NCBI GenBank assembly: GCA_947178445.1 | Contig: CAMWYJ010000010.1 | Location: 1-64,000, forward strand | Length of the DNA: 64,000 bases | Origin: an uncultured Clostridium sp. | Lineage (GTDB): Bacteria; Bacillota; Clostridia; Lachnospirales; Lachnospiraceae | Reading direction: 5' to 3' | Part shown: positions 2,997 to 54,531 of the stretch, piece by piece | How positions within the stretch are numbered: position 1 is the first letter of the stretch | Layout: each line of letters opens with the position of its first letter | Made by a program: the position numbers and the translations under genes | Notes under the pieces: model-generated | Told to the model about the DNA's origin: nothing | Seen by the model: the letters and a program-made list of their open reading frames with translations, nothing else | Databases searched by the model: none

Positions 2997-3506
2997 CTAT
3001 TGAAGTGTAAATTTGCTAAATGAAACACTGTATATACAGTCTGTAGCATACTTTTTCTGCAAATCATCCAAAATCTTTTCTTTAATCTTTTCCTGTGTTG
3101 CCTGATCACTAATCTCATCATATGTGTAGGTTTGAATAATATTTCTCGCCTCATCAAACACAACACCAGATGCATCTGTCAATGCGACATTCAAATCCTC
3201 ATAATCCTTCGAAGCACTGTTCAATCCAAGTGTTAAACCAACCTGTACAAAATGCTTATCACCGCTTCCATCGTCCTTTAGATTCACAACCTGTGCGTCC
3301 ACACTATAGGTTGCCATATCCTTAAGTGATACAGTAGGTTGTGCATTGTCGCTTTTCAATTCCAGACTCAATACAGATGCAATATCTGTAATCAGGCTGT
3401 TTACCTTCTTTGCCGATGGCATACAGACAAATACAATAATGATATTCAATATCAAATTCACTACACATAATGCCAGTATAATAACTGTAATTAAATTCTT
3501 TCTCAT
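2997..3506 (-). CDS. fliL: FliL-like flagellar basal body protein
   Basis: A 169-residue protein with a single N-terminal membrane segment (about residues 6-28) followed by an extracytoplasmic domain, as in FliL, which surrounds the stator and supports torque. The domain is diverged; position between motB and fliM is the main support. The start has a GGAGAAGGAT ribosome site. A generic flagellar membrane protein is the alternative. Confidence 0.75.
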   Translation of the reverse strand: MRKNLITVIILALCVVNLILNIIIVFVCMPSAKKVNSLITDIASVLSLELKSDNAQPTVSLKDMATYSVDAQVVNLKDDGSGDKHFVQVGLTLGLNSASKDYEDLNVALTDASGVVFDEARNIIQTYTYDEISDQATQEKIKEKILDDLQKKYATDCIYSVSFSKFTLQ

Positions 3507-53456: not shown

Positions 53457-53528
53457 GCACCAGTAGCTCAGTGGATAGAGCAATGGCCTCCGGAGCCATG
53501 TGCGGAGGTTCGATTCCTCTCTGGTGCA
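53457..53528 (+). tRNA. tRNA-Arg (anticodon CCG)
   Basis: A 72-base cloverleaf: acceptor GCACCAG/CTGGTGC, D stem GCTC/GAGC, anticodon stem ATGGC/GCCAT with loop CTCCGGA, T stem GGAGG/CCTCT with TTCGATT loop, discriminator A. The anticodon CCG reads CGG arginine codons. CCA is not encoded. It has its own promoter and terminator. Confidence 0.96.
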
Positions 53529-53635: not shown

Positions 53636-54073
53636 ATGCGGTATAACATCTATTGCAATAAGAAAAATCTGACAAAGAACCATAAAGCTGCCATTGCTGA
53701 ATTTGAAAAAAGACTTGGCAGTTATTGCGACATAACATTATCCGTTACAACAACACTTACCCTGCCAAAAGAAATCACAAAAGAAAACCACCACATTCTA
53801 TTTCTCTGTGATGGTCCTTCTACTTACTCATCTGATGAATTTGCAAGGTATCTTCAGAAACTGCATTTGAAAGGTACTTCTAATTTCCATATTTTGATTG
53901 GTTTTTCAGAGCCAGAGGGATATGATGCGGTTTGGTCCATTTCAAAGGAAGTCACACCAGACCGTCTATCCTTAAGCCAGAGTACTCTTTCCACAGAAAC
54001 TGCTACCCTGCTGTTTTATGAACAGCTTTACCGCGCTTATACAATACTGCAGGGTAAAACATACCACAAATGA
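53636..54073 (+). CDS. RlmH-like protein lacking the SAM loop (beta-type)
   Basis: A 145-residue protein that aligns with the SPOUT methyltransferase RlmH over its whole length: FEKRLGSYC near 23-31, FLCDGPSTYSSDEFARYLQKL at 56-76, and an excellent RlmH tail EQLYRAYTILQGKTYHK at 129-145. The glycine-rich SAM loop (IGGxxGLS in RlmH) is replaced by IGFSEPEGY (88-96). It is unlikely to bind SAM alone. It converges on the second RlmH-like gene, which has the loop but no tail; the stop codons are 2 bases apart. I infer a non-catalytic partner subunit. Confidence 0.8.
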   Translation: MRYNIYCNKKNLTKNHKAAIAEFEKRLGSYCDITLSVTTTLTLPKEITKENHHILFLCDGPSTYSSDEFARYLQKLHLKGTSNFHILIGFSEPEGYDAVWSISKEVTPDRLSLSQSTLSTETATLLFYEQLYRAYTILQGKTYHK

Positions 54074-54075
54074 TT

Positions 54076-54531
54076 TCATGATACCATATTCTTGATTTCC
54101 TCACAGAGCACCATTCTCATCAACTGATGCGGAAACGTCATCCTTGAAAAGCTTAACTTCATGTTTGAACGTTTCTTTAATTCTTCTGAAAGTCCCAGTG
54201 AACCGCCAATGAAATATGTAACACTTTCATATCCATCCTCAAATGCCTTTTTTACAACTTCCCTGTGCTGTCCGGTTGTCAGTTCTTTTCCCTCAATACA
54301 AAGAGCCACCACATAGTCTCTATTGGTAAACCGTTTAAAAAAATGTTCCCCCTCTTTTTCTAATATTTGCTTTTTCTGCTTTTCACTCACATGTTCCGGG
54401 ATTTTTTCATCCGGGAACTCTAATATTTCTAACTTATTATTTGTATCAAACAGTTTTTTTTGAATATTTTCTATTTCTGCTCTGTAATAGGAATCTTTTA
54501 TTTTTCCTATACACAATATCCTGTATTTCAT
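54076..54531 (-). CDS. rlmH: RlmH-like methyltransferase with SAM loop but without the C-terminal tail (alpha-type)
   Basis: A 151-residue RlmH: the SAM loop FIGGSLGLSEE (107-117) and FSRMTFPHQLMRMVL (128-142) are intact. RlmH methylates pseudouridine 1915 of 23S rRNA in helix 69. The protein stops at CEEIKNMVS where the family continues with Y-R-A-x-x-I-x-x-G-x-x-Y-H-K; no downstream frame restores that tail, because the next bases are the antisense end of the neighbouring gene. The missing tail is present in that neighbour. The start has AAAGGA. Confidence 0.85.
   Translation of the reverse strand: MKYRILCIGKIKDSYYRAEIENIQKKLFDTNNKLEILEFPDEKIPEHVSEKQKKQILEKEGEHFFKRFTNRDYVVALCIEGKELTTGQHREVVKKAFEDGYESVTYFIGGSLGLSEELKKRSNMKLSFSRMTFPHQLMRMVLCEEIKNMVS

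Follow-up and report, generated by a model that had tools for sequence, protein, structure and literature searches.

The window analysed here, a stretch of 64,000 nt from contig CAMWYJ010000010.1 of an uncultured Clostridium sp. (Lachnospiraceae), contains two convergent rlmH-like genes, designated alpha and beta, each of which codes for an RlmH protein lacking a part that the other retains. We consider it very probable that the two products make up a heterodimeric form of RlmH, the 23S rRNA Ψ1915 N3-methyltransferase, and that this arrangement originated with a cassette.

Alpha and beta, two complementary RlmH-like proteins

Gene beta (53636–54073, plus strand; ATG at 53636, TGA at 54071–54073) codes for a loopless RlmH paralogue of 145 aa, the proposed donor of the C-terminal tail, and gene alpha (54076–54531, minus strand; ATG at 54531, stop at 54078–54076) codes for a tailless RlmH of 151 aa, the proposed donor of the SAM site. 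The frames converge and bases 54074–54075 alone lie between their stop codons, so the ORF coordinates bear out the two-base gap reported in the initial annotation. Upstream of beta there is a tRNA-Arg gene (CCG; 53457–53528). Both products exceed the cut-off of 27 for PF02590 (SPOUT_MTase), with 72.4 bits for beta, which matches the whole profile weakly, and 126.5 bits for alpha, which matches profile positions 1–141 of 154. Neither reaches any of the listed NCBIfam RlmH equivalog cut-offs, the best values being 161.4 vs. 172 for alpha and 58.1 vs. 172 for beta, and these cut-offs overlook both halves of pairs like that of the window; the cassette-type alpha of genome G369, described below, does pass (237.2 vs. 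172). No third RlmH match, which the initial annotation had named as telling against its reading if complete, was found in the genome of the window, a draft of 165 contigs rated 90 % complete. Because the same convergent order is found in 21 of 25 congeners, and because both kinds of protein recur in other families, the pair is neither a sequencing error nor a product of chance.

In E. coli RlmH, one protomer contributes the SAM pocket, with bights 1–3 including 103-GGPEG-107 and H129, and also gives K11, K42 and R43 to the putative RNA site, and the other protomer (monomer B) contributes R25, R26, R142, R154 and the catalytic tail; mutants E138A/Q, Y152F, H153F and R154A are reported to lack activity, and below 500 µM SAM the dimer leaves its second SAM site empty (passages in Koh 2017, PMC5430550). 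The proteins of the window, compared residue by residue, divide these parts in the way that the initial annotation described. Alpha keeps the SAM loop GGSLG of bight 2 (54193–54207, minus strand; equivalents of G104/G107) and the FPHQ motif of bight 3 (54124–54135, minus strand; equivalent of H129) and has no tail; beta has no SAM loop and keeps the tail, within the C-terminal segment EQLYRAYTILQGKTYHK (54020–54070, plus strand; equivalents of E138, R142, Y152, H153 and R154), together with K25-R26 (53708–53713, plus strand), equivalent to R25/R26 of E. coli and present as K-R in 50/50 betas.

An alignment of 46 complete RlmH, 50 alphas and 50 betas extended this division beyond the window, with rows that are not independent because 22 genomes of the window genus sit in each half. 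Within the SAM loop, G104 is present in 46 complete proteins, 49 alphas and no beta, and G107 in 46, 50 and none, respectively; the corresponding numbers for H129, in bight 3, are 46, 50 and 4. Tail residues Y152 and H153 are each found in 46 complete proteins, one alpha and 50 betas, with the single letters seen in alpha belonging to unrelated C-termini. Among the residues of monomer B, R142 is present in 46, 12 and 50 of the aligned rows, and an arginine at position 26 in 46, 14 and 50. Residue E138 (46, 45 and 49) is common to both halves, positions 11 and 43 are uninformative, as conservation is lacking there among complete RlmH too, and K42 is missing in 49 of the 50 betas owing to a deletion of the surrounding region. 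When counted with one row, of our choice, for each of 18 lineages, K/R25, K/R26, E138, R142, Y152, H153 and K154 are present in 18/18 betas, and G104, G107 and H129 in 0/18; among the alphas, G104 is present in 17/18, G107 and H129 in 18/18, E138 in 16/18, K/R at position 26 in 13/18, R142 in 7/18 and Y152 in 0/18. In both counts, alpha has lost the tail cleanly but the remaining monomer-B residues only in part. These losses agree with the protomer roles published for E. coli RlmH (passages in PMC5430550), and the logic of a composite site that the initial annotation invoked holds in this respect.

Since alpha and beta each lack what the partner keeps, only a heterodimer could be complete. As read from the sequences, the pair most likely forms an obligate heterodimer. 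Alpha would give the SAM pocket, and beta would give the face of the second protomer, comprising K-R from helix 1, E138/R142 from helix 5 and the catalytic tail Tyr-His-Lys; there would be one composite site per dimer, and alpha-alpha and beta-beta dimers would both be incomplete. We infer that the pair methylates Ψ1915 and that its members complement each other in trans.

Both genes are under purifying selection in the pairs tested. Values of dN/dS (Nei-Gojobori), which are rough because several dS exceed 1, were 0.09–0.20 for beta in eight of nine pairs and 0.06–0.16 for alpha in five of six, with the ninth and the sixth pair, respectively, being saturated; the value was 0.054 for the alpha of G578 against the complete RlmH of G470, and 0.061 between two complete RlmH. 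AlphaFold2 models of the single chains, with 25 sequences behind each, reached a mean pLDDT of 93.1 for alpha, in which the order of elements fits the SPOUT fold, and of 91.5 for beta. The best 15 matches of the beta model in a Foldseek search against the PDB were all RlmH-family chains, with TM-scores of 0.71–0.79 by query length, followed by TrmD. The long helix 2 seen in alpha is missing from the beta model, in which, as a single chain, the three C-terminal residues are predicted with low confidence.

Distribution of the two genes

Both genes are found in 21 of 25 other genomes of the window genus, in the same convergent order and with open frames, and neither is found in the other four, which are drafts rated 77–91 % complete. 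None of the 25 carries a complete RlmH or one gene alone, the latter being the situation that the initial annotation had regarded as telling against a functional pair. Ten genomes from other genera of the family have one complete RlmH each. In a sample of 393 genomes from the order, 365 contain a PF02590 match and 22 contain two or more; reading of the sequences resolved these 22 into 16 alpha/beta pairs and six artefacts. No RlmH match at E 0.001 was obtained in 28 of the 393 genomes. A sample of 243 genomes from the class, which shares part of its genomes with that of the order, yielded 224 genomes with a match, 19 with two or more, and 10 pairs.

Several second matches were discarded as pairs: that of G341 is one gene spread over two contig ends, those of G151 and G514 have broken frames, the second copy of G061, in tandem with the first, contains a stop, G123 and G144 have contig ends or two complete copies, and in G148, G536, G594, G540, G521, G539, G612, G626 and G627 the second matches are short, weak or broken. 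The lone match of G064, cut by a contig end, was likewise not counted. All of the 22 weak single-match genomes that were checked extend to the last position of the profile, one of them lacking its start, where the contig ends. One genus (G378, L064; G342, L068) has a single RlmH that is complete but unusual, in that its SAM loop is altered and its bight 3 reads TFTH.

A protein search of the class with the beta of G369 gave matches in 33 of 391 genomes at 1e-15, mostly complete RlmH as judged by ORF length, and added G730 and G688 as carriers of beta. Outside the class, 4 of 398 genomes matched at 1e-19, all four with alpha beside beta. Divergent betas are undercounted in these searches, because the beta of the window itself is missed at both limits. 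In total, beta is present in 51 genomes, 49 of which also have alpha and none of which has a complete RlmH by PF02590. The two with beta and without alpha, G103 and G688, are drafts, and an alpha-like gene without a detectable beta is found in G155 (L107, tailless) and, doubtfully, in G656; the most divergent pair, that of G598, is also the least sure assignment. Five more named records with convergent pairs, counted at record level, include that of Eubacterium sp. MSJ-21 (L191, NZ_JAHLPZ010000001.1), where the 3′ ends of the two frames overlap (3416–3432).

The genes are arranged as convergent neighbours, in tandem or on separate contigs, and are 8 kb apart in G730, 410 kb apart in G072 and, in contig coordinates, 2.3 Mb apart in G056. 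Their co-occurrence is therefore not due to linkage alone, since distances run from adjacent genes to 2.3 Mb or to different contigs.

Cassettes at rlmH and the origin of the pair

Genomes G369 and G578 contain a cassette with att sites inserted in rlmH. The alpha of G369 (L219) lacks its last three residues alone, and a gene for a large serine recombinase of 705 aa, with domains PF00239, PF07508 and PF13408, starts 88 bases past it. The best NCBIfam match of this recombinase is CcrC (5e-32), with 111 bits vs. an equivalog cut-off of 900, that is, below the Ccr cut-off. Past the recombinase come genes for type I restriction-modification, further cargo and beta, followed by an att-like sequence and the missing rlmH codons; the element is ca. 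15.66 kb long, and its flanks, when joined in silico, encode a complete RlmH. The element of G578, of ca. 15.9 kb by position arithmetic, has both attL and attR, also carries beta, and is 87–91 % identical to that of G369 over the four longest segments aligned by BLAST (ca. 11.3 kb). Both cassettes carry restriction-modification genes besides beta. A His_Phos gene is situated upstream of the alpha of G369, as at the intact rlmH loci of its congeners G305 and G427, and a gene for a trypsin-PDZ (HtrA-like) protease is situated upstream of the alpha of G578, as at the intact rlmH loci of G470 and G444; because the upstream genes match those of the congeners, these insertions are in the native rlmH. 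The HtrA-like gene is also found upstream of alpha in G451, G494, G541, G484 and G628.

Genome G471 has attL, a beta 14 kb further and an attR without the tail codons, and no recombinase was found on the contig bearing alpha and beta, including the 14 kb between them. This interval (L220, C18:128000–145000) contains response regulator and citrate-lyase genes as well as, judged by eye, IS200/605-like and transporter-like genes. A related cassette occurs in G470, a congener of G578 (L259, C17:47500–66000), with a recombinase of 69 % identity over 474 residues; its end retains the tail in cis, it carries no beta, and the genome has one RlmH match. The G470 cassette also bears genes for a Dcm-like methylase and Vsr. 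A gene combining RNase H and ParB_N lies on the tail-breaking cassette L219 (14328–15257), and its counterpart on L259 (14317–15240) was assigned by its similar start. In G041, a recombinase frame adjoins an intact rlmH, which is the only RlmH match of the genome. Beta thus accompanies 3/3 tail-breaking ends and is absent from 2/2 tail-keeping sites, in a small sample taken as the searches met it.

The intact beta-bearing cassette with its recombinase was found in two genomes only, G369 and G578. A search with PF07508 detected no recombinase beside the 3′ end of alpha in 16 other pair-bearing genomes, including that of the window, where none of the 11 PF07508 matches is on the window contig (C10); the window also contains no att-like 13-mer at ≤2 mismatches. 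A recombinase fragment situated 4 kb from the alpha of G056 was not counted because it is on the 5′ side of alpha. Searches with the beta of G369 did not reveal beta itself outside chromosomes: in plasmids (12 records) and phages (20) the matches were mostly of ca. 155–160 codons and taken as complete RlmH, and in viral contigs, scanned with patterns specific to the G369 beta, no relative turned up, nor did two att patterns match there. The pair of the window presumably descends from a cassette insertion such as those of G369 and G578.

A quick tree with 115 of the 146 rows, 31 near-duplicates or unsure rows being omitted, placed the betas in one clade (99) and did not recover the alphas as a clade. 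A more careful tree of 103 rows, without 12 long-branch or divergent rows of the quick tree, again placed the betas of many families in one clade (100/100, and 200/200 bootstraps), a grouping that could be aided by long branches; alpha was monophyletic in 0/200 bootstraps. The alphas of G578 (98/95), G369 (99/96) and G471 (100/99) group with complete RlmH proteins from the genus or family to which they belong. In AU tests, both of them weak, p was 0.0485 for all 35 alphas as a single clade and 0.136 for the alphas of G369, G471 and G578 as a single clade. The betas of these three genomes, which belong to three families, are 88–93 % identical, and the alpha of G578 is 83 % identical to the complete RlmH of a congener. 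The trees and the identity of the betas from three families indicate that alpha is the resident rlmH, converted several times independently, and that beta is mobile between lineages.

The split would have started with the insertion of an integrative cassette, equipped with a CcrC-like large serine recombinase, into the 3′ end of rlmH, the target that SCC elements also use. Beta itself may have arisen on such a cassette or have been picked up by one from a chromosome. Its attachment end would place a stop ahead of the tail codons, and the same cassette would bring beta, a tail-bearing, loopless RlmH copy, in trans. With decay of the cassette around beta, the resident rlmH could no longer regain its tail and the arrangement would be fixed, after which both halves would shed what the partner provides. 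Genomes G369 and G578, whose alpha is short of three residues, would then represent an early stage, G072 and G112, whose alpha retains R142, less eroded pairs, and the window genus and Eubacterium sp. MSJ-21 the fixed end state. A broader proposal, which we favour with moderate confidence, is that a class of integrative cassettes inactivates its target enzyme upon insertion by removing a catalytic tail and compensates with a half-enzyme in trans, so that a homodimer becomes an obligate heterodimer, and that many lineages of the phylum, the window genus among them, owe their split RlmH to the repeated decay of such cassettes.

The initial annotation had proposed, as one reading, that rlmH was duplicated within this lineage and that the copies then degenerated reciprocally, with no mobile element, and the adjacent convergent pairs of the window genus and several other families, with no element alongside, fit this idea. 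We nevertheless regard it as unlikely, because the tree unites the betas of every family included in a single clade (100/100), the alphas of three lineages group with the complete RlmH of their own kin, betas borne on cassettes exist, and the beta of the window is at most 30 % identical to any aligned complete RlmH and no nearer to its own alpha. What stands from that annotation is the heterodimer, as a prediction, with complementary loss, no third rlmH and no single-gene congener in its favour; the origin by duplication is not supported. Slightly less likely again is that alpha is active alone, another residue replacing the tail, and that beta has another role, e.g. in ribosome binding or regulation. 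The general base of RlmH is indeed not settled, and alternatives have been given (passages in PMC5430550), but R142 and Y152-H153-K154 are present in 50/50 aligned betas, beta occurs together with a tailless alpha in 49 of its 51 genomes and never with a complete RlmH, and the tail mutants of the E. coli enzyme are inactive (PMC5430550).

In G369 and G578, beta travels on cassettes that also bear restriction-modification genes, and it might be a dominant-negative or decoy directed against the host RlmH, with alpha as collateral damage. This appears quite improbable, given that the related cassette of G470 spares the tail in a genome without beta, that the sole RlmH match of G041 is an intact rlmH with a recombinase frame beside it, and that beta persists in other lineages with no detected cassette. 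The least probable explanation, marginally behind the decoy, is that both genes are decaying remnants in hosts that no longer make m3Ψ1915: the 28 order genomes without an RlmH match make the gene look dispensable, but dN/dS is 0.06–0.20 for both genes in unsaturated pairs and both frames are open in the 21 congeners carrying them.

Comparison with known systems

Alpha and beta are of the same Pfam family and fold as the homodimeric RlmH/YbeA/OrfX (E. coli 5TWJ, S. aureus 4FAK), and taken together they match its catalytic and SAM-site residues. The predicted heterodimer would also resemble it in having an asymmetric composite site, with the SAM site from one protomer and the tail from the other (passages in PMC5430550), but the homodimer is the product of one gene, whereas here there are two genes and the product of each lacks the part of its partner. 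The cassettes resemble SCCmec and the Enterococcus cassette chromosome in their large serine recombinase, whose best NCBIfam match in G369 is CcrC; SCC and enterococcal cassettes target the 3′ end of rlmH and have degenerate inverted-repeat ends that include the last rlmH codons (passages in PMC10061031 and PMC6222049). In contrast to SCC-type elements, those of G369/G578 have an attachment end that introduces a stop ahead of the tail codons, and they bring beta with them; the recombinase of G369 is far under the Ccr equivalog cut-offs.

The idea of a SPOUT heterodimer is itself prior: for the yeast proteins Ygr283c/Ymr310c (COG2106), a heterodimer has been suggested in which one SPOUT paralogue would be inactive or would bind the substrate (passages in PMC1829167), and no such proposal was found for RlmH in the literature searched. 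COG2106 is a different SPOUT family, the heterodimer is only suggested, and those passages do not describe partners of which one has lost the tail and the other the SAM loop. No split or heterodimeric RlmH, and no cassette complementing rlmH in trans, was found among the open-access titles and abstracts listed, which is weak evidence of absence.

If our account is true, the pair would be a natural dissection of the asymmetric active site of RlmH, made several times independently, and would form an obligate heterodimer, which elsewhere in the superfamily was found only as a suggestion (yeast COG2106). It would also reveal how a mobile element, and not a chance duplication, can drive the change from a homomer to a heteromer. 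The hosts are gut bacteria, in which an enzyme that marks the ribosome would apparently be made as two complementary proteins. Replacement of a homo-oligomer by a catalytic subunit and a SAM-defective paralogue is the type represented by the m1A58 tRNA methyltransferase. The yeast enzyme has been named as a catalytic/non-catalytic pair (passages in PMC1829167). Unlike this methyltransferase, which is of a different fold class, both halves of RlmH would give residues to the active site, and here the partner can arrive on a mobile cassette.
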